Of a DNA stretch of 14,307 bases, positions 402-13,980 are shown piece by piece. The notes below the pieces were generated by a model. That model ran no database searches. It had not been told where the DNA came from and saw only the letters and a program-made list of their open reading frames with translations. The stretch spans positions 1 to 14,307 of the forward strand of contig JAMCQY010000431.1 of assembly GCA_023381945.1 (NCBI GenBank), in the 5' to 3' direction. Both the position numbers and the translations under genes were made by a program. The stretch comes from Deltaproteobacteria bacterium. GTDB lineage: Bacteria > Desulfobacterota > Desulfobaccia > Desulfobaccales > 0-14-0-80-60-11. Positions within the stretch are counted from its first letter, which is position 1; each line of letters begins with the position of its first letter.

Positions 402-707
402 ATGCGAATGCTTCTGAAGGTCAAGTTTCCTCATGAGAAGTTCAACGAAGCAGTCAGAGACGGGACTGTTGGTCCGAAAATGAGCCGTATCCTGGAAAGC
501 GTCAAACCCGAGGCTGTTTATTTTACCGAGCATAATGGCCAGCGCGGTGCGATTCTGATTGTTGATTTGAGCGACCCGTCTAAGGTTCCAGCCTTGGCTG
601 AACCCTGGTTTCTTACCTTTAATGCTGATGTGGAATTTCACCCGGTAATGACGCCGGAGGATCTTCAAAAGTCCGGCCTGGAGGAGTTAGGAAAAACCTG
701 GAGATAA
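402..707 (+). CDS. small conserved hypothetical protein (101 aa, cytoplasmic)
   Basis: A 101-residue protein without signal peptide or membrane segment. It has a compact alternating strand/helix pattern: a start of LLKVKFPHEKFN, a central GAILIVDLSDPSKVPALAEP, then WFLTFNADVEFHPVM, and an end of TPEDLQKSGLEELGKTW. The composition and the clear amphipathic elements look like a real ferredoxin-like-fold domain of the DUF3303 kind; similar ~100-aa proteins are sometimes labelled panthothenate synthetase without support. I cannot assign a function. The start at 402 is supported by GGAGG at 392-396, five bases upstream; an ATG two codons later (408) is also possible. The gene stands alone on the plus strand and ends 57 bp before a strong hairpin terminator. 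A long open frame on the opposite strand (300-668) is judged a shadow. Confidence 0.82.
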   Translation: MRMLLKVKFPHEKFNEAVRDGTVGPKMSRILESVKPEAVYFTEHNGQRGAILIVDLSDPSKVPALAEPWFLTFNADVEFHPVMTPEDLQKSGLEELGKTWR

Positions 708-1060: not shown

Positions 1061-3625
1061 TTAACTTGCGGTTTCCTCCGGGCGTAGGCACTTCAGACTG
1101 TAGTCTTCCTTTTTGAAGGCCTGGAGGCAGCGGTCCAGGATATTATCAGAGGACAAAGCCAGGTCGAGTTGGCGGCAAAAGGCCATCAGCAGGCCCGCCA
1201 ACTCCAGGGTCTGCTCGGTTTCGAGCAGCGACAGTTTCACCAGGCGGCCCTGCACCAGGTCGCCCTTGGCCTGGGCCTTGAAGCCCAATTCATCCAGGAT
1301 CTGCTTGAGCAGGCGGGCCCGGCGCTCCCGACGCTCGATGGCGGCGGCCCCGCCCTTGAATTGAAAGCTGATGTAGTTGTCGTTGCGCTCTTCGGAGATA
1401 TAGGCGTCCATCATGCCGAAGTGGTAGCCCAGCCGCGAGTTGAAATTGAGATAATTGCCGGTGATGATGGCGAAGCTCTTGCCGCCCAGCCCGCGTTCGC
1501 CCTTGTTCATGTCGTACATGGTGTTGGCGAAGACGGAGATGAAGCCCTTGAGGTCCGGAGCCACCTGGCCGGCCCAGCTTACTCCGGGGTGATGAAAGCC
1601 GCGCAGCAGGGCCTTAAAGGGCCGGGAGGTGATGTCGTCTTCGGTCACCTGTTCCTGGCCGCTGACCCTGAGTCCGCCCCCAAGGTCGAGCACATAGAGA
1701 TTCAGGGGCAAATCGGTGACCAGGCGGGCCACGCGGCTGGACTCCACCGCCCTCTCCACGTCCCGGCTGAACATGGCGTCCATGGCCTTTTCGTGGCAGA
1801 AGCGGGTGATGTCGTGCAGCGTCTGGCAGTTGCCGGCCTGGAAATCCGGGTCCTCGGGTTCGAGCAGGCTCAGGGGAGAGGCCAGCCTGAGAACTCGCCG
1901 CAGTTTTTGAAAGACCGGGGAATTGCGCAAATCACCATCGGTTTCAGGCTGGCGGTCCAGGAGTTCGGTGACGATGCCCGGATAGACCCGGGCGGCGTCG
2001 GCGTCCACCGTGACGATCTGGCCGGGATGCAGCACCCGGGTGGCGCCGCCCACGTCCACCAGGGTGGGAATACGGAATTCCCGGGCCAGGATGGTCATGT
2101 GATCCGTAGGGCTGCCCACTTCGGTGAGGATGGCGGCGATCCGGTCCATGGCCAGGACCAGACGGGCCGAGGGCTGGCGGGCCACCACCACGGCGCCGGG
2201 AGGGATGCCGTCCACGTCTTCGTCATAAAGAAAATGATGGACCCGCCCGGCCACGGCGCCGCCCACCGCCCGGACGCCGAAGGTCAAGAGCGGCGGCACG
2301 GTCGGTTCCGCCGGACGCTCCCGAGTGGCCGGGGCAGCAAAATTGGGGGTGCAAACCCGGAGAGGCCGGGACTGGAGGATGACGATATTGCCGGCCTCGC
2401 CCACGGTCCATTCGATATCCTGGGGCCCGCCGAAGTGTTCTTCCAGCATCAGGGCGATTTCCGCCAGGGTGCGCGCCTGGACGTCGGTGAGGGAGGGAGC
2501 CGAGGCCTTTTTGGCCTGGAGTTTCACCGAAGCTACGCCGCCGTCGGGACGGCAGGCCAGGGCCACGGTTTTTTCCAGCACCCGCCGCTGCTTGATGGCA
2601 TGGCCCTTATCGCGGGAAATGACGTAGAGATCCGGGGAGATGGTGCCGTCGACGGCGTACTTCCCCAGGCCCCAGACGGAGCTGATTAAGACGCTGTCGG
2701 CTTCGGGGGCGTGGGGGTCGATGGAGAACATGACGCCGCTGGCCTTGGCCGGGACCATGGTGAGGACGCCCACCGCCATGGGGAGCTGGTCGATGGAAAA
2801 TTCCTGATATTTCCAATAGAAGATGGCCCGGGAAGTAAATTTGCTGGCGACGATTTCCTTATAGTGGTCCGGGAGCCGCGCGGCGTCGACGTTGAGCAGG
2901 GTGGCGAATTGACCGGCAAAGGAAAATTCAGTGTCTTCGCCCACCGCACTGGAGCGCACCGCCAGCCAGGGGGTGGGCAGGGATTTGGCCGCCTGCGTGA
3001 TGGCCTGCTCCAACTCCGCGGGCAAAGGCGCCCGGCGGATCAAGTCCTGGATCTCCTGGCTCTCCAATTCCAGGCTCTCCAGGTCGTGAATAGGGGCCTG
3101 GGCCAGTCTTTCTTCCAGTTCGCCGGAGAGTCCGGCCTCTTCCAAAAAGAATTTATAGGCCGCGGCAGTGACGGCAAAACCCTGGGGCACCGGCAGGCCC
3201 ACACGATTGCCGATCTCCCCCAGGTTGGCCATCTTGCTGCCCACGGCCGGAGCCAGATCCTGGTTTAAGGCCGACAAGGGCAGAATGAAAGGAGTTTCCG
3301 GGATAGTGGGGACTGCGGCCAATTCCTGGCGGATGTCTTCACCCAGGCGCCGGCAGATGGGAGCCAGTTCCGGGTAGCGGCCCCCGGTGAGCAGATTGAG
3401 TTCGGCGACCATCCCCGAAACGCTGGCCAGCAGGCGGTCCGACTGGGTTTCCAAATAGCCGGTGTCAAAGAGGAAGTCGCCGGAGAGCTTCTCCTCCATG
3501 TCGGCCATGGTTTCCAGAGCCTGGTTGTTTTCGGTCAACAGGCGGCGAAAATGGTCGAACTGCTCCTGCAGGCGGGTCGCCTCGTCTACTTCCTCTTTAA
3601 GGAACCGTCGCAGGAATTTAAACAC
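1061..3625 (-). CDS. PEP-synthase-like phosphotransferase with atypical C-terminal domain
   Basis: About 855 residues, probably cytoplasmic. Residues 1-120 are a helical, probably coiled-coil extension. Residues ~125-425 form a PPDK/PEP-synthase ATP-grasp domain: RSSAVGED (225-232), SGVMFSIDP (297-305), QDIEWT (403-408) and ILQSRP (417-422). Residues ~450-550 form the mobile phosphohistidine domain with TDHMTILAREFRIPTLV, where His510 would be the phosphorylated residue. PEP synthase and PPDK then carry a TIM barrel that binds PEP/pyruvate; here residues ~560-855 show none of its usual signatures but a different domain with GHxHx-poor motifs such as YVLDLGGGLRVSG (645-657), NYISFQFKGGAAA (751-763) and a helical tail. 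The ATP half-reaction looks intact; the phosphate acceptor is unknown. The start is probably GTG at 3625, six bases after GGAG; TTG at 3628 is the alternative. It follows the kinase and regulator genes at an 89-92 bp gap, so an operon is likely. Confidence 0.85.
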   Translation of the reverse strand: MFKFLRRFLKEEVDEATRLQEQFDHFRRLLTENNQALETMADMEEKLSGDFLFDTGYLETQSDRLLASVSGMVAELNLLTGGRYPELAPICRRLGEDIRQELAAVPTIPETPFILPLSALNQDLAPAVGSKMANLGEIGNRVGLPVPQGFAVTAAAYKFFLEEAGLSGELEERLAQAPIHDLESLELESQEIQDLIRRAPLPAELEQAITQAAKSLPTPWLAVRSSAVGEDTEFSFAGQFATLLNVDAARLPDHYKEIVASKFTSRAIFYWKYQEFSIDQLPMAVGVLTMVPAKASGVMFSIDPHAPEADSVLISSVWGLGKYAVDGTISPDLYVISRDKGHAIKQRRVLEKTVALACRPDGGVASVKLQAKKASAPSLTDVQARTLAEIALMLEEHFGGPQDIEWTVGEAGNIVILQSRPLRVCTPNFAAPATRERPAEPTVPPLLTFGVRAVGGAVAGRVHHFLYDEDVDGIPPGAVVVARQPSARLVLAMDRIAAILTEVGSPTDHMTILAREFRIPTLVDVGGATRVLHPGQIVTVDADAARVYPGIVTELLDRQPETDGDLRNSPVFQKLRRVLRLASPLSLLEPEDPDFQAGNCQTLHDITRFCHEKAMDAMFSRDVERAVESSRVARLVTDLPLNLYVLDLGGGLRVSGQEQVTEDDITSRPFKALLRGFHHPGVSWAGQVAPDLKGFISVFANTMYDMNKGERGLGGKSFAIITGNYLNFNSRLGYHFGMMDAYISEERNDNYISFQFKGGAAAIERRERRARLLKQILDELGFKAQAKGDLVQGRLVKLSLLETEQTLELAGLLMAFCRQLDLALSSDNILDRCLQAFKKEDYSLKCLRPEETAS

Positions 3626-3707
3626 CAAAGTCTCCGATAGTCCTTTAGCAGTCTATAGGGCGCGCCGTGCATGCCGAACCGGCGGCCACAGGCTGCCCGT
3701 CTATAGT

Positions 3708-3721
3708 TGATCACTGATCAC
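3708..3721. repeat. tandem 7-bp repeat across the stop codon of the response regulator
   Basis: Two head-to-tail copies of TGATCAC (3708-3714 and 3715-3721). The second copy contains the TGA stop of the minus-strand receiver gene (3720-3718). The same spacer holds a separate 8-bp direct repeat, GTCTATAG, at 3651-3658 and 3699-3706. Confidence 0.6.
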
Positions 3722-4122
3722 TGCTTTCTCAAGGCTGCCAGTTCCCCTTGCATCCTTTTCCATTCCAGAGCCCGGCGGATGGTGATCAGAATGGTCTCCT
3801 TGCGAAAGGGCTTGGTAATGAAATCATAGGCTCCCTTCTGGATGGCTTCCTCAGCGGTTTCGATGGTGCCGTAGGCGGTGATGATGATGATGGGCAGGTT
3901 CTGATTGATCTTTTTCACAATGTCGATCAGATCCATGCCGTCCACCAGGGGCATCTTCAGATCGGTGATCACCAGGTCGTAATGGTCCTCTTGGAGCATT
4001 TTGCCCACTTCGAGGGGATTGTTAGTGGTGTTCACTTCATACCCCGTCTTATCCATCAGGATGGTCCTCAGCAACCTGAGCATATTGGGTTCGTCGTCCA
4101 CCACTAAAATACGTTCCGGCAT
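3718..4122 (-). CDS. receiver-only response regulator (134 aa)
   Basis: A single CheY-like receiver domain with nothing after it except a short helix. The acidic pair is D9-D10 (ILVVDDEPN), the phospho-acceptor is D54 (VITDLKMP), the switch threonine is T82 (IITAYGT) and the conserved lysine is K104 (FITKPF). The sequence is closest in style to receivers of NtrC-type activators, but the AAA+ and DNA-binding domains are absent, and the gene ends cleanly at 134 residues with no open downstream remnant. Such single-domain regulators act by protein contact or phosphorelay (family knowledge). AGGAGG lies six bases before the ATG at 4122. It lies 81 bp after the histidine kinase gene and ahead of the PEP-synthase-like gene; the kinase is its presumed partner, and the PEP-synthase-like protein is a possible target (inference). 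Confidence 0.93.
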   Translation of the reverse strand: MPERILVVDDEPNMLRLLRTILMDKTGYEVNTTNNPLEVGKMLQEDHYDLVITDLKMPLVDGMDLIDIVKKINQNLPIIIITAYGTIETAEEAIQKGAYDFITKPFRKETILITIRRALEWKRMQGELAALRKQ

Positions 4123-4203: not shown

Positions 4204-6519
4204 CTAATTACTGCTCACTGCTTGCTGCTCACTGCTTGCCGTCTCCGCGGTCTCCGAATCTGCGGCGATGGGCAGATAAACGGTGAAGGTGGTCCCGTGT
4301 TTTTCGGGATATTCGTCAGCCGGAAAGGTGGTGAAGATGATGTTGCCGCCGAACTTGGTGATGATGCCGTAGCTCGTGGACAGGCCCAGGCCGGTGCCTT
4401 CGCCGGTCTTCTTGGTGGTGAAGAAGGGATCGAAGATCTTGGTCTGGGCCTCCCGGGGAATGCCGTTGCCGGTATCGCTGAACTCGATGGCCAGGCGGTT
4501 GCCGTCGGGGACCTTTTGGGTCGCCACCTTGAGGACGCCGCCGCCCTTCATGGCATCCCGGGCATTATTAATCAGGTTGATGAAAACCTGCTGCAGTTCC
4601 GAGGGGTCGCAAGCAGCCATGGGAAGGCCGGGGGCGAGGCTGCTGTCCAGGCGAATCTTTTTGGTCAACAGGGTATTTTTCACCACCGCCAGAGTCTTTT
4701 CCAGGAGATGGTTGATGTCAGCCCGGGTTTCGGTGCGTTCCGGGGCCCGGGCGAAGGTCAGGAGATTTTCCACGATCTTTTTGCAGCGCAGGCCCTCTTC
4801 CTCGATGACCTTCAGGGTGGCGTTGATTTCGGGCAAATCTTCAGTCTGCCCCAACAGGTGCTCGGTGAACCCCAGGATCACGGTCATGGGATTGTTGATT
4901 TCGTGGGCCACGCCGGCGGCCAAGGTGCCGATGGAGGCCAGCTTCTCCATATTGATCAAGCGGTCTTCAATGGACTTGCGGCCGGTGATATTGCGGGAAA
5001 TGATCTCAAAAGCAAAGATCTGCCCCTGCTCGTCCTTGATGCCCACTATGCTGGTGGAGAACCAGAAATCCTGGTCACCGATAGACACTTGGTGGCGCAT
5101 GGAGCGGACTTTGCCGGCGGCCTGCATCTCCCGTAGCCAGTCCATGTGGAACTCGGCGGATTTTTTGGTAAAAATGTCGTAAAGCGTACGGCCGATAAAA
5201 TCTTCGGGGTGTCCTCCCAGCAGGGCCTCGGCAGGCTGGCTCTGGGGCAGGCCTGCCAGAGCCCGGGAGAAGAGGTCGGCGGCAAAACGGTTGATTGAGA
5301 GAATGCGGCCTTGATTGTCAACGGTGTAGATGAGGTCGGCGGCATTTTCCACCAGGCCTTGATACCGGGCCTCGGACTTCTGCAATTTCACCTTCTGACG
5401 GTTGACCTCCTCCTCCAACTGTTCGGAGAACTGGCGCTCATAACGAAAATTCAACATAAAGATGGTGCCGGAGAGGACCACCAGGCCGATGATCACCTGC
5501 ATGAAAAACTGGCGCATATAGAGGGAGTGAATTACCCCTTCAACTTCGCTGGCCGGGGCCGCCACCGCCACCGACCAGGAGGGCTCGGGGTTGTCGCTCT
5601 TCACGTAAGCGGGGTCCCCCAGCTTCACCGGGGAGTAGGCGATGAGTTTTTGAATCTCGCCGGCCATACCGCGGTGCCAGCCGGAGATATAGGTGCCCCA
5701 GCCCTCTTTACCGGTCAGCATCTTTTCACGTTGGATCTGGTTAATGGCGTCGAAAGAGATGGCCGGCATGCGCGCCTTGCGCACGGTGAAGGCATTTTTG
5801 CCGATAAAATCCCGTTCCGGGTGGGCTAGAAAGACGCCCTGATTGTCCATGATCCAGGCATAGCCAGTCTTGCCGCTGCGTATATCCTGGGTAAATTTGC
5901 TGGCCAGATGATGAGCGTCGATATAAAAGGCCAGGACGCCGGCAAACTTACCCGAAGGATGGGGATGGCTCTCATCCACCGAAACCTCATAAGTAGGTAC
6001 GGCCATCACCGTGATCAGGCGGCCTGGGAAATTGGGAACCCGGGTTGACACCGGGCTGACATAGACCTGACCTTTGTTTTCAGGTTTAGCAGCCCATTCC
6101 AGAAAGGGGGCATCTTTGAAATTGCCGGTGGTAATGTGTTCCAGACCCCGGCTGTCCACCAGATAGGCTCGCCGGCCATCGGCGTCCATGCGAAGGATCT
6201 CGACCAGGCCTTCCTCCCGGACGCTGGCCAGGGTGGCCCGCATGCGGTTGGCCCAGGTGAGGGGCTCCAGGTATTGGATCGACGGGGAGAAATTGAGAGT
6301 GCTTAGCTCCCGCTTTAAGAAATTGATGTCCTGCTCCAGAAGACCGGCGGTGTGCTTGGCCAACACCAATTGCTGCTGATTGAAATCTTCCTTAACGATC
6401 TCCCGCATCTGGCCGGCGGATTTCAACCCCAAATAGATGCTGGTGCCCAGGAGGGCAAGGTTCACCGCCAGGAGAATTGCCAGGACGTAGTGGGAAACCA
6501 GAAAAGGGAAGCGCCGCAT
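4204..6519 (-). CDS. dCache-PAS sensor histidine kinase (771 aa, inner membrane)
   Basis: Membrane segment 1 is at residues ~10-32. A periplasmic region of ~300 residues (about 35-332) has dCache character, for example TGYAWIMDNQGVFLAHPERDFIGKN (split here as residues 218-242). Membrane segment 2 is at ~337-357 and is followed by a coiled-coil linker. A PAS domain spans ~385-510 (LVENAADLIYTVDNQGRIL). The HisKA helix carries the phosphorylated His539 in AAGVAHEINNPMTVILG. The HATPase domain shows the N box (NLINNARDA, 648-656), G1 (DTGNGI, 682-687), F box (FDPFFTTK) and G2 (GTGLGLS, 708-714). All catalytic motifs are intact. Cache domains usually bind small molecules such as amino or organic acids; the ligand here is unknown. 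The last ~12 residues are encoded by a 14-bp tandem repeat and look non-conserved. It is first in a likely operon with the receiver gene and the PEP-synthase-like gene. A GAGG lies 11 bases before the ATG, a rather long spacing. Confidence 0.94.
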   Translation of the reverse strand: MRRFPFLVSHYVLAILLAVNLALLGTSIYLGLKSAGQMREIVKEDFNQQQLVLAKHTAGLLEQDINFLKRELSTLNFSPSIQYLEPLTWANRMRATLASVREEGLVEILRMDADGRRAYLVDSRGLEHITTGNFKDAPFLEWAAKPENKGQVYVSPVSTRVPNFPGRLITVMAVPTYEVSVDESHPHPSGKFAGVLAFYIDAHHLASKFTQDIRSGKTGYAWIMDNQGVFLAHPERDFIGKNAFTVRKARMPAISFDAINQIQREKMLTGKEGWGTYISGWHRGMAGEIQKLIAYSPVKLGDPAYVKSDNPEPSWSVAVAAPASEVEGVIHSLYMRQFFMQVIIGLVVLSGTIFMLNFRYERQFSEQLEEEVNRQKVKLQKSEARYQGLVENAADLIYTVDNQGRILSINRFAADLFSRALAGLPQSQPAEALLGGHPEDFIGRTLYDIFTKKSAEFHMDWLREMQAAGKVRSMRHQVSIGDQDFWFSTSIVGIKDEQGQIFAFEIISRNITGRKSIEDRLINMEKLASIGTLAAGVAHEINNPMTVILGFTEHLLGQTEDLPEINATLKVIEEEGLRCKKIVENLLTFARAPERTETRADINHLLEKTLAVVKNTLLTKKIRLDSSLAPGLPMAACDPSELQQVFINLINNARDAMKGGGVLKVATQKVPDGNRLAIEFSDTGNGIPREAQTKIFDPFFTTKKTGEGTGLGLSTSYGIITKFGGNIIFTTFPADEYPEKHGTTFTVYLPIAADSETAETASSEQQAVSSN
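4211..4238. repeat. 14-bp tandem duplication encoding the kinase C-terminal tail
   Basis: Two exact head-to-tail copies of CTGCTCACTGCTTG (4211-4224 and 4225-4238) overlap the last codons of the kinase gene. The unit is not a multiple of three, so a change in copy number would change the tail's frame and its stop codon but leave the HATPase domain intact. Confidence 0.7.
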
Positions 6520-6746: not shown

Positions 6747-6779
6747 GAAAAAGAGCGGCTCCCCTTGGAGGAGAGCCGC
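6747..6779 (-). terminator. rho-independent terminator of the TauE/stress-protein unit
   Basis: Read on the minus strand, GCGGCTC (6779-6773) pairs with GAGCCGC (6761-6755) and is followed directly by the T-rich run TCTTTTTC (6754-6747). It begins about 30 bp past the stop codon of the universal stress protein gene. It separates this unit from the kinase operon. Confidence 0.82.
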
Positions 6780-6809
6780 CGGGTTAGGGGGAATGAACAG
6801 TACGGCAAA

Positions 6810-7223
6810 TCAGCTTTTGACCACCAGCACCGAACAAGGGGAGTAAGTCACCACTTTGGAGGCGGTGCTGCCCAGAAAAGACGAGGTCTTGCCGGCCAGG
6901 CCGCGACTGCCTATAACGATGAGGTCGATCTTTTCATCTTTGGCGACCCGGACGATCTCCTCGGCCGGCGAAGGCCCGGTGGCCAACAGGACCTGGGCGA
7001 TAGTGCCGCATTTCTGCGCCACATCTTTGGCTTTCTTCAGGGCGGAATCCGCCTGAGCCTTCATCTTGTCGGCAATGTACCTGCCCTCTTCCAGCTCCGG
7101 CAGTTCGATACCAACCGACATCAGGGTCAGGGCTGAGGAAGGTTGAGACTTAGCCAAGTCGCAGGCGTATTCCACGGCCTTCATGGAGTATTCTGAGCCA
7201 TCCACAGGCACCAGCATCTTCAT
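6810..7223 (-). CDS. universal stress protein, UspA family (137 aa)
   Basis: A single Usp domain, at the family's usual length. It begins MKMLVPVDGSEYSMKAVEYA, with the conserved Asp8 that contacts the adenine ring in ATP-binding members. It ends with G105-x2-G108-x9-G118-S119, the full ATP-binding signature of the MJ0577-like subgroup, followed by a VVTYSPCSVLVVK strand. ATP binding is therefore likely. Its ATG overlaps the TGA of the TauE gene (the sequence ATGA at 7223-7220), and GAGG lies seven bases upstream inside the TauE gene, so translation is probably coupled. Usp proteins encoded next to membrane transporters often modulate them (family knowledge); a role in controlling this permease is inference. 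Confidence 0.95.
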   Translation of the reverse strand: MKMLVPVDGSEYSMKAVEYACDLAKSQPSSALTLMSVGIELPELEEGRYIADKMKAQADSALKKAKDVAQKCGTIAQVLLATGPSPAEEIVRVAKDEKIDLIVIGSRGLAGKTSSFLGSTASKVVTYSPCSVLVVKS

Positions 7224-8251
7224 GGCTGCACCTCTTTCACGGAATAGGCGGCCTTCTCAGCCTGCTCCTTCTTGAAGCCGTTCCACAGCTTGACCATGAT
7301 GACTACGCACATTCCCAGGGCAGCGCTCATCACCAGCCAAGCAGCGGCGGTGTTCATTTGGAATTGTTTCAGGGCAACCGAAGAACCTGCCAGGATGATC
7401 ATGATGGCGAAGAGCAGGCGGATGCCGTAGCCCCGGATGTATTTGACTGCGGTGACGCCGACCTGGGCCCCGATGGCCGCGCCGATTAACATCAAGACAG
7501 CGGCGACGATTTCGACGCGAGCCTTAACCCCATAAGTGAAGCAGCCATAAGCCCCGGAAAAGAGGACCGAGAACAGATCGGTGCCCACCGCAATGGCCGT
7601 GGGGCAGCCGATGAGGTAAATCAAGGCGGGCATGCGGATGAAGCCGCCGCCGACGCCCAGGAGACCGGAGAGCCAACCCGTAAAGAGAAATACCCCGCAC
7701 ACCGTCCACAGGGAAATGGTGATCCCCGAGGCCGGAAAATGGATCATGGGCGGAATGTTCCAGGACTTTTTAGCAGGTGGAGTCACCCCGGACCGCGCCG
7801 CCGCTGCTACTTTGGCGGCCTGGGCTGCCGCCCGCTTATCTTTGGTCATGTAGTCATAAAGCATATAAATGCCCAGACCGAAAAGCAGGAACATGTATAA
7901 ATAACGCACCACCGGTCCGGCTATGCCCAACTTGGTCAGCCACATGACATTCTGGGCGCCGATCTCCACCCCGACGACCGAACCGGCGATGGACAGCAGT
8001 CCCAACTTCATGTCCACGTTGCCCATTTTGCGATGTTTGGCGGTGGCCACGATGGATTTGCCGAAGATATGAGCCAGATCGGTGCCGATGGCATAGGCCA
8101 TGGGGAATCCGAATATGTTTAGGGCCGGGGTCACCACCCAGGCGCCGCCGACTCCGAAGAAGCCTCCCAGGACGCCCACAGAAAAACCGATGGCAATAAG
8201 AATGAGGGCGTTGAATTGCATGTCGGCGATGGGCAGATAAATATCAAACAT
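7220..8251 (-). CDS. TauE/SafE-family permease (343 aa, inner membrane)
   Basis: A polytopic membrane protein with two similar halves, as in the sulfite/organosulfonate exporter family (former DUF81). The first half carries GGFFGVGGAWVVTPALN then YAIGTDLAHIF (29-63); the second carries SGLLGVGGGFIRMPALI then IAVGTDLFSVLF (195-231). About eight membrane helices can be traced. Between the halves, residues ~136-165 form a positively charged, alanine-rich cytoplasmic loop, longer than in minimal family members. Members export sulfite, sulfoacetate or related anions (family knowledge); the substrate here is unknown, though a sulfur anion would suit a sulfur-cycling anaerobe. AGGAG lies nine bases before the ATG at 8251. 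The 94-aa membrane gene ends 22 bp upstream, and the stress protein gene overlaps its stop codon. Confidence 0.93.
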   Translation of the reverse strand: MFDIYLPIADMQFNALILIAIGFSVGVLGGFFGVGGAWVVTPALNIFGFPMAYAIGTDLAHIFGKSIVATAKHRKMGNVDMKLGLLSIAGSVVGVEIGAQNVMWLTKLGIAGPVVRYLYMFLLFGLGIYMLYDYMTKDKRAAAQAAKVAAAARSGVTPPAKKSWNIPPMIHFPASGITISLWTVCGVFLFTGWLSGLLGVGGGFIRMPALIYLIGCPTAIAVGTDLFSVLFSGAYGCFTYGVKARVEIVAAVLMLIGAAIGAQVGVTAVKYIRGYGIRLLFAIMIILAGSSVALKQFQMNTAAAWLVMSAALGMCVVIMVKLWNGFKKEQAEKAAYSVKEVQP

Positions 8252-8273: not shown

Positions 8274-8558
8274 TTATTCGTGGTGCTCGATCTTGTGGAC
8301 TTCCATGCCGATCATCTTCAAGATGACGTCGGTGACCAGGGCGATGGCGAAACCCAAAAGTCCCATCAGCACCGTGACGATGGTAGCATAAACCCAGAGG
8401 TTGTCGTTGTACCACTGGGCGAAGAAATAGTTGAAGCCACTCAGTTTCGACAGGTCGACTTTCTTTTCCAGCAGCTCTGCCTTTTCTGAGGCGGCCCAGA
8501 CCAGGGCTGGCACGCCCAGCAACAATAAGTTAAGGATGATTGCCGAAATCTTCTTCAC
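8274..8558 (-). CDS. small membrane protein of the TauE unit (94 aa)
   Basis: Residues 1-22 (MKKISAIILNLLLLGVPALVWA then a small-residue site) look like a signal peptide or first membrane helix. A polar stretch with KVDLSKLSGFNYFFAQWYNDN follows, and a second helix spans ~52-77 (LWVYATIVTVLMGLLGFAIALVTD, residues 54-77). The tail is His/Glu-rich (HKIEHHE). No enzymatic motif is visible. The start is GTG at 8558-8556, chosen because GGGAGGTGA lies six bases before it and the hydrophobic stretch begins immediately. It is the first gene after the sigma-54 promoter and lies 22 bp ahead of the permease gene, so it may be a permease subunit or assembly factor (inference). I recognise no named family. 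Confidence 0.85.
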   Translation of the reverse strand: MKKISAIILNLLLLGVPALVWAASEKAELLEKKVDLSKLSGFNYFFAQWYNDNLWVYATIVTVLMGLLGFAIALVTDVILKMIGMEVHKIEHHE

Positions 8559-9037: not shown

Positions 9038-9655
9038 TCAGAAGGGTGATTGGGCAATCAGCTTCTTGCCGGTGTATTCGGCCACGTCGGCCAGGCCGTC
9101 CAGGGGCATAAAAAGGCTGGCGTTCGCGGCAAAGAGGCAGGTTACGGAAGCGGGAAAATCCTCGTCCGCCAGATTGAAGATATAGTAAAGGGGAATCCGG
9201 GGCAGGGGCCACAGTGTGAAGGAAAAATCACCGCTCAGGGCGTCATGGTTAATCTGCCCGGAGAACATCGAGACGAGCAGGTCCCGGTGGGCCTGTATGG
9301 CGTTGACGTGGGGAACCAGTATCTGCTCGGCATTGGCGGCAAAGGCCGCCTGGTAAGGCATGCTGTTCGGCAGATCCTTAAAGGCTTTGAGGGGCTGCAA
9401 TTGGACCGGCAAATCGGGCACGCGGCTGGCATACATGGCGATGAGCAGGCCTTCCGGGCCGGAGGCTGATTTCCCCGAAAGCAAAATATCGGCCGGGGTC
9501 AAAGTGCAGTCCTCACCAAAGGCTTGGAAGCGGAGGCCGTCGCGGCCGGATTGGGCTGGCAGACAGGCGGCCAGGTCTTCTTCGGACCTGGCCCAGGCCT
9601 GCGCTAAATATTCGTTTCTGATCTGGAGATAGGCTTGGCTCATCATAGTCCCCAT
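9038..9655 (-). CDS. DUF3786-like protein (205 aa or slightly shorter)
   Basis: A soluble protein matching my knowledge of DUF3786, a domain found mainly in strict anaerobes. Visible hallmarks are the central LxxFKDLPNSMPYQAAF (89-105), a run of helices with HVNAI, then SGDFSFTLWPLPRIPLYYIF (141-160), the acidic ADEDFPASVTCLF (163-175), and a final helix-rich part with MPLDGLADVAEYTGKKLI. The biochemical role of the family is unknown; members often lie near corrinoid or one-carbon genes. No Cys cluster or membrane segment is present. The start is uncertain: the ATG at 9655 has only a distant GAGG, while GGGGA lies five bases before the ATG at 9643 (residue 5), which I find at least as likely. 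The PurN-like gene ends 135 bp upstream and may be co-transcribed. Confidence 0.85.
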   Translation of the reverse strand: MGTMMSQAYLQIRNEYLAQAWARSEEDLAACLPAQSGRDGLRFQAFGEDCTLTPADILLSGKSASGPEGLLIAMYASRVPDLPVQLQPLKAFKDLPNSMPYQAAFAANAEQILVPHVNAIQAHRDLLVSMFSGQINHDALSGDFSFTLWPLPRIPLYYIFNLADEDFPASVTCLFAANASLFMPLDGLADVAEYTGKKLIAQSPF

Positions 9656-9790: not shown

Positions 9791-10459
9791 TTACTTTGCT
9801 TCCGGCATCAGCAGGCCTTGCAGCTCTGCGGTCTCATACACCACTTCTGCGCCGACCAGCCTCACCTGTTCCTGCACGACGTAGTTTAGCACCCGGGACT
9901 GCCATTCGTGTTCGACACGGTTGACCCTGGCCGCCAAGGTTTCCGGGGTATCCTCCGGCTCAATTGGCACGGGCAGCGCGAAAAATACCGGACCCCGGTC
10001 GTATTTCTCGTCGACAAAGTGCATGGTGACCGCGCTGTGGGTAATCTCCCCGCGGTGATAGGCTGCCATCACCGTTTCGTGAACATGGTGTCCGTAAAGT
10101 TTCGGCCCGCCAAACCGGGGCAAAGGACCGGGATGGATATTAATCGTCCGCGCCGGGTCAAGGCCTGCCACCAGTTTCAGCCAGCCGGAGAGCATGACAT
10201 AATCAGCGTTGAAATACTTGACAAAGTTTTGATAGCCCCGGGCCAGGTAAGGACCAACCCAATATTGGGCGGGTATTCCGAGAGCTTTGGCCTTCTGCCA
10301 AACACCGCCGCCAAAATGGTTGGTGATGACTGCACAAATCCAGGCACCTAAAATTGGCGGCCCGGTCCGCGCCGCCCTTGCCATGGTCTCAAATCCAGAG
10401 CCGCCGCCGGTTTTGGTCCCGGAAGCAAAAACCAGAATATTTGGCTTAGTCTTTGCCAT
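9791..10459 (-). CDS. PurN-like formyltransferase (222 aa)
   Basis: Formyltransferase fold of the phosphoribosylglycinamide formyltransferase group, which moves a formyl group from 10-formyltetrahydrofolate to an amine (in purine synthesis, GAR to FGAR). The catalytic triad of the family is present: N107 and H109 in TINIHPGPLPRFGG, and D154 in VDEKYDRGPVF. The C-terminal helix motif EDTPETLAARVNRVEHEW also fits. The N-terminal loop reads FASGTKTGGGSGFETM, longer and more glycine-rich than in classical PurN, which marks a divergent branch; the substrate may therefore not be GAR. I chose the ATG at 10459 because ILVFASG is the first strand of the domain and AAGG lies nine bases upstream. The frame stays open to 10594, but the extra 45 residues have no family counterpart, and their first in-frame alternative ATG (10486) lies in a palindrome. 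It is followed by the DUF3786-like gene. Confidence 0.88.
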   Translation of the reverse strand: MAKTKPNILVFASGTKTGGGSGFETMARAARTGPPILGAWICAVITNHFGGGVWQKAKALGIPAQYWVGPYLARGYQNFVKYFNADYVMLSGWLKLVAGLDPARTINIHPGPLPRFGGPKLYGHHVHETVMAAYHRGEITHSAVTMHFVDEKYDRGPVFFALPVPIEPEDTPETLAARVNRVEHEWQSRVLNYVVQEQVRLVGAEVVYETAELQGLLMPEAK

Positions 10460-10475
10460 AACCCCATCCCTTTTC

Positions 10476-10581
10476 GGCTTATTCATAAGCCATCGCCCTG
10501 ATAAGAGCAAGGCCTCCGGTTCATAATTTTTTTTAGGGATTGAGGGGCATTCGCCCTTCAAGCCGTCCAAGTCCGGAGGCC
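10476..10581 (-). promoter_or_regulatory. structured leader upstream of the PurN-like gene
   Basis: Three potential stems in the ~120 nt before the start codon. Outer stem: GGCCTCCGG (10581-10573) with CCGGAGGCC (10519-10511), nine perfect pairs. Inside it is an 8-pair hairpin, TGAAGGGC (10560-10553) with GCCCCTCA (10548-10541), one G-U pair, closing a GAAT loop, followed by an A8 run. Third, next to the gene, is GGCTTAT (10491... read as its complement) at 10476-10482 with 10485-10491, which encloses an ATG. It does not match a riboswitch class I can recall, including the ZTP motif. It could be a regulatory RNA leader or simply coincidental palindromes. Confidence 0.4.
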
Positions 10582-10594
10582 GTCGCAATGCCAT

Positions 10595-11126: not shown

Positions 11127-11346
11127 CTTTTTCATTAGCCATAAAGAAACATCCGTTATCATTAATTAGGTACAAAAGCCCAATTGCACCTTTATAACGT
11201 TGTATTATTTTATGATTGAAATGAAATTTGGGCCTCAATTGATTAGCGAGAAAGAGATCGCTTTACATTTTTTGTGTGAAAGAAAGGATGTCTTTTTGCT
11301 CGGAGAAAGGATGCGAATTCTAGAAAAAATAGGAGGTTTTACCATC

Positions 11347-13980
11347 ATGCAACTCAGGTTCTTCTTCAAAATCATGGTACTTTTCGTCTTGTTTGCCGCG
11401 TTTTCCACCACGGCGCAAAGCGCTCAACCATGGCCAGGAGTAACTATTGTCTTTGATGATGGCTATTCATCGTTGAATAGCCTCGCGCGCCCGTTGTTCA
11501 AGAGCAATAATATAGTAGCCACGACGTGTCCTGTCGTAGGTTCGATCGGCGCCTCTGGGATGGTCACCTGGGACGGCCTGCGGGATCTGAAGTCAGATGG
11601 CTGGGAAATTGGCAGTCATAGCTTGACGCATCCCGACCTCACCACCCTCACCCCCTCCCAGTTGGACAACGAATTGAGCCAGTCTAAGTCTCTTCTGGAA
11701 ACCAACCTGAGTATCCAAGTTCATACTTTTGCTATTCCCTTAGGGGCCTACGACCAAAAAGTGCTAAGCGCCATCGCTCAATATTACAACTTCGCGCGCA
11801 ATGTCAATGTCCCTTTTAGTAACAACCCTCTGCCACCCATCCCTTATACGGTAAACTGCCTTGAAATTCTCGGCTCTACCACTCCGCAGCAAGTAGAAGA
11901 TTGGATCGAGGCCGCCCGGATTAAGGGAGACTGGGTTGTACTCACTTTCCACGAAATTATCCAGGGCGATTCCGATCCCCAACTTGATTATTCTTATGGA
12001 ACTAATCAACTTACAACGATCCTGCAGTATATCCAGACTAAGGGTTATCCCACCCCGACCTTTACCAGCGTCTTCAAACAATTTCCTCCCACGGCCAATG
12101 CCGGAGCGAACCAGACGGTGAATCTCGGAGCTACAGCGACTCTGAATGGGGATGCCAGTTCTGATCCCTGCGCCCAATCTCCCCTGACCTTTGCCTGGAA
12201 TTTTAAATCCAAGCCGGCCGAAAGCGGCGTCACTCTCAGCGGCGCCAATACCGTCAACCCTTCTTTTACCCCGGACAAGGAGGGAGATTATGTAGTGCAA
12301 TTACAGGTTACCAACAGCCTGGGAGTTATGAGCCAGGCGGCCACGGTCACCGTTAGCACCAGCGCGCCGAGCAATTCTCCGCCGGTGGCCAATGCCGGCT
12401 CCGCCCAAACCGTGGCACTGGGTGCCCTGGTCACCCTGGACGGCTCCCTCAGTTCCGACCCCGACGGGAATCCCATAACCTATGCCTGGAGTATCACCTC
12501 CAAACCGGATGGCAGCACTGCCGTTCTTTCAGACGCCACCCTGGTGAAACCCTCTTTTACCGCTGACAAGGACGGCAATTATGTGCTGCAATTGATGGTC
12601 ACTGACTCTAATGCCGCGGCCAGCACTCCGGCCACCGTCATCATCAGCACCCGCAATTCCGCCCCGGTGGCCAATGCCGGTCCCGACCAAACGTCGCGTC
12701 ACGGCGCTACCATCACCCTGGATGGCTCCCGCAGTTTCGACCCCGACGCTGATTCCATAAACGCTATCTGGAGCTTTACTTACAAACCGGCGGGAAGCAC
12801 TGCGGTTCTCAATAACATAACCTACGGGAACCCTAGCTTTACGGTTGATAAGGCTGGAATCTATGTGGTGCAGTTAATCGCCACTGATCCAAAAGGTGCG
12901 GTCAGCACCCCGGACACCGTCACCATCGTCTCCCAAAATTCTCCCCCGGTGGCCAATGCCGGTCCCCCACAAACAGTGACTAAGGGGGCTGTTGTCACCC
13001 TGGACGGCTCCGGCAGTTCCGACCCCGATGGTGACTCCTTAACCTATGCCTGGACGTTCACCTCCAAACCGACGGGGAGCACGGCAACCCTCTCGGACCC
13101 CACCGCCGCGAAACCCACTTTTGCAGCCGATAAAACCGGAAATTATGTGGCGCAGCTGATCGTCACTGATTCTCTTGGCGCCGTCAGCGGTCAGGCCAAT
13201 GTCACCATCACCTCCAACCTCAGCGGCAATTACCGGCTCTTCTGGCGGAACGGCGCGACGGGCCAAAATGCCTTCTGGAACATGAATGGCGTGACTCTGA
13301 CCGGGACTGCCATGCTGCCCAGCGTCGACGCCGCTTCGGGCTGGCAGGTTTTGGGGGTTGGCGACTTCAACGGTGACGGTGAGCGCGACCTTCTCTGGCG
13401 GAACGGCTTGTCGGGCCAAAATGCCGTCTGGTACATGAACGGGGGGACTCTGACCGGTTCTGCGCTCCTGCCTAGCCTGCCCCCCAATTCGGGCTGGCAA
13501 ATTGTGGGAGTTGCTGACTTCAATGGGGACAACAAGCCTGACATCCTTTGGCGGCACGCTTCGGGCCAAAACGCCGTCTGGTATATGAATGGAGTGACTC
13601 TGACGGGAACTGCATCCCTGCCCAGTGTCGACCCCGCCTCGGGCTGGCAGATTGTAGGAGTCGCCGACTTCAACGCTGACGGTAAGCCCGACCTCTTGTG
13701 GCGGAACGGCTTGACGGGCCAAAATGCCCTCTGGTACATGAACGGGGTGACTCTGACCGGGACCGCCTTCCTGCCTAGCCTACCCCCCAATTCGGGCTGG
13801 CAGATTGTCGGAGTCGCCGATTTCAATGGTGACGGTAAGCCCGACCTCTTGTGGCGGAACAGCCTGTCGGGCCAAAATGGCTTCTGGTACATGGATGGCG
13901 TGACTCTTTCCGGGTCTGCCTTCATAACCAGCCTCGACGCCGCCTCCGGTTGGGTGATCCAGGGACGAACCACTGAGTGA
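11347..13980 (+). CDS. secreted NodB polysaccharide deacetylase with PKD-like and WYMNG/FG-GAP-like repeats (877 aa)
   Basis: A signal peptide (MQLRFFFKIMVLFVLFAAFS then TTAQSA, cleavage near residue 26) is followed by a NodB domain (~30-245). Motif 1 is FDDGY with D37/D38, motif 2 is H91-x3-H95 (GSHSLTHPDL), the motif 3 counterpart is AIPLGAYD (129-136), and motif 5 is LTFHEI with H202. The metal triad Asp-His-His is complete, so hydrolysis of N- or O-acetyl groups on a polysaccharide is plausible. Four PKD-like domains follow (from residues 247, 345, 439, 533), each starting PPVANAG-type and containing SSDPDG and a YAW strand. The C-terminus (629-877) holds five ~51-residue units with LLWRN, SGQNAVWYMNG, SGWQIVGVADFNGDGKPD. 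No membrane anchor or sorting signal is visible, so secretion or surface adhesion is inferred. The start at 11347 is chosen because it directly precedes the signal peptide and AGGAGG lies ten bases upstream; the frame stays open to 11200 without meaning. Confidence 0.92.
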   Translation: MQLRFFFKIMVLFVLFAAFSTTAQSAQPWPGVTIVFDDGYSSLNSLARPLFKSNNIVATTCPVVGSIGASGMVTWDGLRDLKSDGWEIGSHSLTHPDLTTLTPSQLDNELSQSKSLLETNLSIQVHTFAIPLGAYDQKVLSAIAQYYNFARNVNVPFSNNPLPPIPYTVNCLEILGSTTPQQVEDWIEAARIKGDWVVLTFHEIIQGDSDPQLDYSYGTNQLTTILQYIQTKGYPTPTFTSVFKQFPPTANAGANQTVNLGATATLNGDASSDPCAQSPLTFAWNFKSKPAESGVTLSGANTVNPSFTPDKEGDYVVQLQVTNSLGVMSQAATVTVSTSAPSNSPPVANAGSAQTVALGALVTLDGSLSSDPDGNPITYAWSITSKPDGSTAVLSDATLVKPSFTADKDGNYVLQLMVTDSNAAASTPATVIISTRNSAPVANAGPDQTSRHGATITLDGSRSFDPDADSINAIWSFTYKPAGSTAVLNNITYGNPSFTVDKAGIYVVQLIATDPKGAVSTPDTVTIVSQNSPPVANAGPPQTVTKGAVVTLDGSGSSDPDGDSLTYAWTFTSKPTGSTATLSDPTAAKPTFAADKTGNYVAQLIVTDSLGAVSGQANVTITSNLSGNYRLFWRNGATGQNAFWNMNGVTLTGTAMLPSVDAASGWQVLGVGDFNGDGERDLLWRNGLSGQNAVWYMNGGTLTGSALLPSLPPNSGWQIVGVADFNGDNKPDILWRHASGQNAVWYMNGVTLTGTASLPSVDPASGWQIVGVADFNADGKPDLLWRNGLTGQNALWYMNGVTLTGTAFLPSLPPNSGWQIVGVADFNGDGKPDLLWRNSLSGQNGFWYMDGVTLSGSAFITSLDAASGWVIQGRTTE
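12085..13215 (+). repeat. four tandem PKD-like domain repeats inside the deacetylase gene
   Basis: Units begin at 12085, 12379, 12661 and 12943, i.e. 294, 282 and 282 bp apart. Each encodes ANAG...QTV, a VTLDGS-type strand, SSDPDGD, YAW, SKP.GSTA, PSFTADK.G.YV.QL.VTD. The first unit is most divergent: it has SSDPCAQSPL where the others have SDPDG-like Asp-rich loops. Confidence 0.85.
13237..13977 (+). repeat. five near-identical ~153-bp repeats encoding a propeller-like domain
   Basis: Units start with the (L/I/F)WR codons at about 13237, 13390, 13543, 13693 and 13846, spacing 153, 153, 150 and 153 bp. The third unit lacks one codon (RHASGQN instead of RNGLSGQN). Units 1, 3 and 5 carry S(V/L)D(A/P)ASGW, while units 2 and 4 carry SLPPNSGW, an alternating pattern. 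Four linkers keep a Ca-binding-like DFN(G/A)D(G/N)x(R/P)D loop. Confidence 0.88.

Follow-up and report, generated by a model that had tools for sequence, protein, structure and literature searches.

The window, meaning the whole 14,307-nucleotide stretch of DNA that was analysed, contains six co-directional genes encoding a DVU0150-like protein, a TauE transporter, a universal stress protein (Usp), a histidine kinase, a receiver-only regulator and a PEP-synthase-like protein. The same six-gene order is repeated in loci L001, L009, L010, L011 and L012. The features are as follows.

1061..3628, minus strand: four-domain PEP-synthase-like protein, 855 codons when counted from TTG 3628; GTG 3625 is the likelier start
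3305..3628, minus strand: helical N-domain, residues 1-108 (AlphaFold helices 15-46, 55-79 and 87-103)
2339..3250, minus strand: ATP-grasp domain (PPDK_N), residues 127-430 (Pfam, 6e-86; structural match to 2ols and 5hv1)
1997..2206, minus strand: swivelling phospho-His domain (PEP-utilizers), residues 475-544 (Pfam, 8e-19)
2099..2101, minus strand: codon of His510, the putative phosphorylated residue, its role assigned by homology
1070..1951, minus strand: alpha+beta C-domain, residues about 560-853 (AlphaFold model), undescribed and without a sequence match of its own
1790..1816, minus strand: HDxxRxxHE motif, residues 605-613, whose conservation tracks a sound kinase core
1421..1429, minus strand: GYH, residues 734-736, with G734 and H736 retained in core-less proteins too
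3718..4122, minus strand: receiver-only response regulator, 134 aa (Pfam Response_reg)
4204..6519, minus strand: sensor histidine kinase with dCache, PAS, HisKA and HATPase_c domains
6754..6780, minus strand: terminator-like hairpin between the Usp and histidine kinase genes, 12 pairs (8 G-C) with a T-rich tail
6810..7223, minus strand: Usp, overlapping the transporter gene by 4 bases
7220..8251, minus strand: TauE/SafE-type (TSUP) transporter
8274..8558, minus strand: small DVU0150-like protein, below the family cut-off (50.5 against 70 bits)

Twelve terminator-like sites were counted in the region against 10.5 expected in shuffles, and the hairpin at 6754..6780 has the longest stem of these; it perhaps splits the gene run into two transcripts. 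The module is flanked by genes for a DUF3303 protein (402-707, plus strand) and a DUF3786 protein (9038-9655, minus strand). Elsewhere in the window, 9791-10594 (minus strand) encodes a formyltransferase fold that is weakly PurN-like (71.8 bits against a cut-off of 150.1) with a longer N-terminal part, and 11200-13980 (plus strand) a polysaccharide deacetylase with PKD-type and FG-GAP-like repeats, which is probably a surface or secreted protein.

The reading frame of the PEP-synthase-like protein (1061-3628, minus strand) is intact and encodes 855 amino acids when counted from TTG 3628. However, an alignment of 52 family members has a consensus (MFKFLRRFLKEE...) that starts one codon later, and the spacing from GGAG is 6 nt for GTG 3625 as against 3 nt for TTG 3628. 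For these two reasons GTG 3625 is preferred as the start, and the real length is likelier 854 amino acids. RNA folding upstream of the start was not notable (z -1.3). A chance open reading frame is ruled out, since residues 545-855 are matched by 898 of 7994 scored candidates (E up to 0.001) and residues of the protein are identical in all 80 aligned relatives.

The ATP-grasp catalytic residues K132, R225, E231, D232, E406, Q419 and R421 are identical in 80/80 aligned relatives. His510 is conserved in all 80 aligned full-length relatives and in 448/448 proteins of a wider set, and R516 and E517 are likewise identical in the 80, while position 404 is variable (D in 63, E in 17). The intact engine named in the original prediction is thereby borne out, and its motifs RSSAVGED, QDIEWT and QSRP and the phospho-His segment TDHMTILAREFRIP lie where that prediction had placed them. 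By structure search the phospho-His domain aligns to the carrier domains of PPDK, enzyme I and pyruvate kinase. Three relatives (P0245, P0248 and P0252) carry two phospho-His domains in tandem, with the His kept in both.

The N-terminal extension had been called helical and unusual. The first part stands, as about 105 N-terminal residues are helical in the AlphaFold model, but the extension is no one-off: across 13 genomes, a C-domain place is found no more than 2.6 kb from 84 of the 85 N-domain places. Conversely, 83 of 87 C-domain places in the same genomes have an N-domain place within that distance, with core-less genes accounting for two of the four that do not.

Beyond the phospho-His domain, known sequence families run out. 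The last Pfam match in the window protein ends at residue 544, the best NCBIfam PEP synthase stretches stop at residue 556, and other matches from the core side also stop early (2ols from the PDB at 571, one NCBIfam match at 588). Residues 572-855 are without a match in Pfam, NCBIfam or the PDB sequences, so that the C-terminal domain is as unfamiliar as had been proposed. The proposed lack of a pyruvate barrel was also upheld. PEP-utilizers_C was absent from the window protein in a Pfam scan at E up to 0.001, aligning the C-domain profile with hhalign to six barrel-bearing PEP-synthase-like proteins gave a probability of 0.1%, and in the profile comparison with such proteins the alignment was confined to the core. 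In the AlphaFold model the C-domain has four consecutive strands without a beta-alpha repeat, a secondary structure unlike that of a barrel. Barrel matches occur at 31 places and in 13/13 genomes, all on other genes and each more than 3 kb from the nearest C-domain place.

When a C-domain profile of 25 rows was compared with PDB sequences, the lowest E was only 0.025; the hits to UPF0166, UCH-L5 and ornithine decarboxylase (E 0.025-1.3) are weak and were judged to be chance, as were the Pfam matches among 25 C-domain members, where any one family matched at most one member. Modelling the C-domain alone on 7 close sequences gave a result of low quality (pLDDT 47.6), which was set aside. Fold searches with the whole model were taken up by residues 111-562 and are silent for or against a known fold of the C-domain. 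Invariant C-domain positions (80/80) are H605, D606, R609, H612, E613, P670, G677 and G734, and further H736, F757, G759, G760, R770, Q820 and D822.

Among characterized systems, enzyme I of the PTS shares with the family a phospho-His domain. It is charged by PEP via its barrel and is not known to contain an ATP-grasp domain. PEP synthase (pyruvate, water dikinase; TIGR01418, 2ols) is the best NCBIfam match and the first row of the fold searches, and it shares both the order of ATP-grasp and phospho-His domains and the catalytic residues. However, it carries the PEP/pyruvate barrel, whereas the family lacks the barrel and has an added N-domain and a different C-domain. The window protein falls short of the PEP synthase cut-offs (314.6 against 739.75 bits for TIGR01418, 322.6 against 598 for NF005057) as well as those of pyruvate phosphate dikinase (TIGR01828, 34 against 843.45) and rifampin phosphotransferase (NF041857, 225.7 against 999; NF000283, 165.5 against 1700).

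Rifampin phosphotransferase (RPH; 5hv1, 5fbs) resembles the family in combining an ATP-grasp and a swivelling His domain with an acceptor domain other than that of PEP synthase. Its order is ATP-grasp, acceptor and C-terminal His domain, whereas that of the family is ATP-grasp, His domain and C-domain; the His domain of one family member matches positions 789-861 of the 864 in an RPH model. Known relatives with a swapped acceptor domain are described in excerpts of PMC12167813 and PMC4844700. The two-component dikinases HpeHI, CreHI and PpsAB likewise pair ATP-grasp and a His carrier with a non-pyruvate acceptor, yet, as excerpted in PMC12167813, they are built of two polypeptides with an RPH-like substrate domain, while the family is a single chain, and they have Met at the regulatory Thr of PEP synthase, where 318 of 448 family proteins have Thr (position 508). 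VadK (Rv1127c), according to the available portions of PMC13400623, is a PPDK relative without a pyruvate domain that autophosphorylates its own His and has a regulatory role. It consists of the ATP-binding and His domains alone and is linked to the methylcitrate cycle, and those portions describe nothing like the N- and C-domains of the family. A truncated dikinase of the VadK type stops after the phospho-His domain; the family continues for about 300 further conserved residues. Its N- and C-domains, copy number and core-less forms set the family apart from VadK, RPH and HpeHI.

In a sample drawn within one phylum, 146 of 395 genomes contained the C-domain. All 18 close genomes that gave loci hold 4-10 C-domain matches each, fragments among them. 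Twenty loci from named genomes bear the titles Deltaproteobacteria, Syntrophobacterales, Syntrophales, Desulfobaccales or Desulfobacca, and the nearest matches of the window protein that name an organism are Desulfobaccales. Carriage on plasmids was rejected, a plasmid collection having given no C-domain match. A role in antiphage defence was rejected, as PADLOC returned 0 families for the window protein and for the core-less protein of L136; the window's receiver-only regulator gave one weak PADLOC match (19.2 bits). A literature search of open-licence papers found no description of, and no experiment on, any member of the C-domain family, and a term search of PMC13101534 found nothing on it.

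Some members are longer or clustered. Forms of about 1060 amino acids, with some 200 extra C-terminal residues, are found in L042 (3876-7055, plus strand), L037 (5571-8729, plus strand), L046 (7333-10509, minus strand) and L047 (7573-10752, minus strand); the extra residues of L042, the one of the four that was scanned, have no Pfam match. L098 (5823-13791, plus strand) holds a tandem array of three members, of which the central one has a decayed ATP-grasp domain.

A census gave 507 C-domain entries, counting loci and proteins with duplicates included. Of these, 429 are uncut and have the N-domain, ATP-grasp, His domain and C-domain, while the end of a locus truncates 53; a further 14, which include database fragments and split frames, have no recognised N-domain. 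Eleven entries lack both ATP-grasp and His domain; they represent six distinct proteins of about 400 amino acids, their duplicates, and a 169-aa open reading frame with a partial C-domain (L114/L138) that was excluded from the core-less count. The original prediction had proposed to test whether the C-domain also occurs alone or fused elsewhere; it occurs without the kinase core in the six proteins below, four of them with a detectable N-domain. Three further members have a decayed ATP-grasp but retain the His domain. These core-less and decayed forms of the family are a new observation of this analysis.

L011, 1190-2401, minus strand: core-less, 404 aa, N-domain and C-domain scores
L136, 6954-8183, plus strand: core-less, 410 aa, N-domain and C-domain scores
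L137, 1446-2681, minus strand: core-less, 412 aa, N-domain and C-domain scores
L039, 7577-8746, minus strand: core-less, 390 aa, N-domain and C-domain scores
L096, 5667-6890, minus strand: core-less, 408 aa, C-domain score alone
L132, 1474-2667, minus strand: core-less, 398 aa, C-domain score alone
L098, 8819-11200: decayed ATP-grasp, His domain retained
L134, 5882-7921: decayed ATP-grasp, His domain retained
L135, 5479-7512: decayed ATP-grasp, His domain retained

In a tree of the C-domain the core-less forms fall in at least two lineages. In one of these, decayed and core-less forms group with support of 100/100, which suggests that the core was lost stepwise there. All three decayed forms keep H510, so some other source might charge their His domain.

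Loss or decay of the core is mostly accompanied by loss of one C-domain motif. With a sound core defined as one that misses at most one of eight catalytic residues (444 of 447 distinct core-bearing proteins), HDxxRxxHE is intact in 436/444 core-sound, 0/3 decayed and 1/6 core-less proteins, although the 447 share kinship and the counts are not independent events. In the core-less proteins H605 is retained in one of six and R609 in two, while P670, G677, G734, H736, N751, G759, G760, R767, R770, D790, R795, Q820 and D822 are retained in all six. Because the motif is mostly lost while these other positions are kept, we infer that HDxxRxxHE works together with the phosphate-carrying core and that the remaining invariants serve the fold or another function. 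Against this link, the core-less protein of L136 keeps the motif, the only one of the six to do so. To judge from these conservation patterns, the C-domain is probably more than an acceptor site, since it is found without the kinase core and with its other invariants kept.

The gene surroundings were compared for 68 distinct copies, taken from fetched loci chosen by match score or by hand. Within four genes of a copy, 41 had a histidine kinase, 29 a TauE transporter, 22 a Usp, 13 a DVU0150-like protein and 7 a DASS-type transporter; a receiver of at most 170 amino acids was present within four genes of 37 and immediately adjoined 30. The corresponding numbers for 59 control genes at a distance of eight genes or more were 11 for histidine kinases, 13 for TauE, 5 for Usp, 7 for DVU0150-like, 5 for DASS-type and 5 for receivers. 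In a per-gene test against 122 genes at least seven places off in the same loci, a small control drawn from module-rich loci, histidine kinases alone were significant (p 0.012), and receivers (p 0.089), TauE (0.20) and Usp (0.27) were not. Some copies adjoin other genes, such as the 1053-aa form in L037, which lies beside three matches to antiporter/NADH-dehydrogenase-like subunits.

Genome-wide counts were made in nine genomes after this weak per-gene control, with expectations that presume an even spread of genes. Thirty of 86 TauE-type genes have a C-domain place no more than 4 kb away, against 1.55 expected; the 86, from 94 matches, are those that pass the cut-off in the nine genomes, four other genomes not being included. 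Among the listed ones (all but a few) of 163 matches to the window's regulator, 29 relatives are receiver-only (open frame at most 205 aa), and 25 of these 29 are at most 4 kb from a C-domain place, against 0.53 expected. The C-domain places number 69 of 71 matches, the two omitted being the second piece of a split gene and a 39-residue fragment; 27 of the 69 are within 4 kb of a listed receiver-only regulator and 42 are not. Two receiver-only regulators closely related to that of the window (G017:C39:10064 and G007:C97:6647) lie a few kb from TauE genes and away from C-domain places. All five core-less genes whose surroundings could be seen (L011, L039, L096, L136 and L137) have a TauE gene within 1.1 kb, and the one in L136 also neighbours DVU0150-like and Usp genes. 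In D. vulgaris, DVU0150-DVU0146 is a listed transport target of the regulator DVU0151 (excerpt of PMC4641369). TSUP proteins occur in all 44 sulfate reducers surveyed in PMC5840216, the excerpts of which call their functions not predictable.

Our tentative reading, which we favour at somewhat less than even confidence, is that a family member is a regulatory, ATP-driven His phosphotransfer protein of the dikinase type, of PEP synthase origin, belonging to a transport module. The ATP-grasp domain would use ATP to phosphorylate His510, as in its homologues, and the swivelling domain would ferry the phosphate to a site of onward transfer within the C-domain that may be formed or lined by His605, Asp606, Arg609, His612 and Glu613. 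The N- and C-domains would form a body for docking with or sensing a partner in the membrane transport module, made up of a TauE/TSUP or DASS transporter, Usp and the small protein. The sensor kinase and receiver-only response regulator would stand over the module, and phosphotransfer would set its activity. This reading is argued for by the invariant catalytic residues, by the missing barrel in genomes whose barrels are on other genes, by the tie between HDxxRxxHE and a sound core, by the 4-10 C-domain matches per genome, which exceed the needs of one metabolic step, by the transporter neighbourhood that core-less proteins retain, and by the clustering of TauE genes and listed receivers around C-domain places; VadK gives a precedent for a barrel-less PPDK relative in regulation (available portions of PMC13400623). 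Weighing against it are the per-gene control, significant for histidine kinases alone, the listed receiver within 4 kb at only 27 of the 69 C-domain places, the copies that adjoin other genes and the motif kept in the core-less protein of L136. That HDxxRxxHE hardly varies among paralogues whose transporters differ could also be explained by a single small-molecule acceptor shared by all.

Such an acceptor was the substance of the original prediction, in which the protein phosphorylates something other than pyruvate and the C-domain is the new acceptor-binding module. In the manner of RPH or HpeHI, the C-domain would bind a metabolite, perhaps the cargo of the neighbouring transporter, which takes phosphate from His510. 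We regard this as possible but rather unlikely. It accords with the intact engine, with the adjoining transporter genes, with the exchange of acceptor domains among known relatives (in excerpts of PMC12167813 and PMC4844700), and with HDxxRxxHE being tied to a sound core, as an acceptor site should be, which is indirect support for the acceptor role. The same motif recurs nearly unchanged, though, among the 4-10 matches of a genome, with different transporters beside them, C-domain proteins exist without the kinase core, and the receivers, histidine kinases, TauE/DASS transporters and Usp nearby fit regulation equally or better. As the whole story, neither the acceptor role nor a new metabolic substrate is supported: the observation behind the original prediction is confirmed and its interpretation partly supported.

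The protein could instead add a further tier to the two-component system next to it, the receiver Asp exchanging phosphate with His510 or with the histidines of the C-domain. The proximity of 25 of the 29 listed receiver-only regulators to C-domain places, the small receiver immediately adjoining 30 of 68 copies and the tandem phospho-His domains of three relatives are in keeping with this, but with 42 of 69 C-domain places lacking a listed receiver-only regulator within 4 kb we consider it improbable. An ordinary PEP synthase with its pyruvate site in a divergent barrel, the name that public pipelines give many members and the top NCBIfam match, is scarcely credible and was rejected on account of the missed cut-offs and best stretches ending at 556, the missing PEP-utilizers_C, the core-limited profile alignment, the four successive strands without a beta-alpha repeat and the separate barrel-bearing genes of these genomes.

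Going beyond the favoured regulatory reading, the family may represent a new signalling machine, in which PEP synthase was turned into an ATP-charged His phosphotransfer regulator and multiplied in relatives of sulfate reducers, the copies being wired to a sensor kinase, a receiver-only regulator and a transporter of anion type; core-less copies would serve as partners without power of their own or as decoys. This wider proposal is speculative, and we hold it doubtful. Should the regulatory reading be right, a large group of anaerobes would have recruited an engine of central metabolism to control a transport module, arriving by a second route where VadK did. The C-domain region is present in at least 898 database proteins, many of which are labelled pyruvate, water dikinase, and metabolic models would mistake them for gluconeogenic enzymes. 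Nature has in effect run an experiment with the core-less and decayed forms, which indicates the residues to test first.
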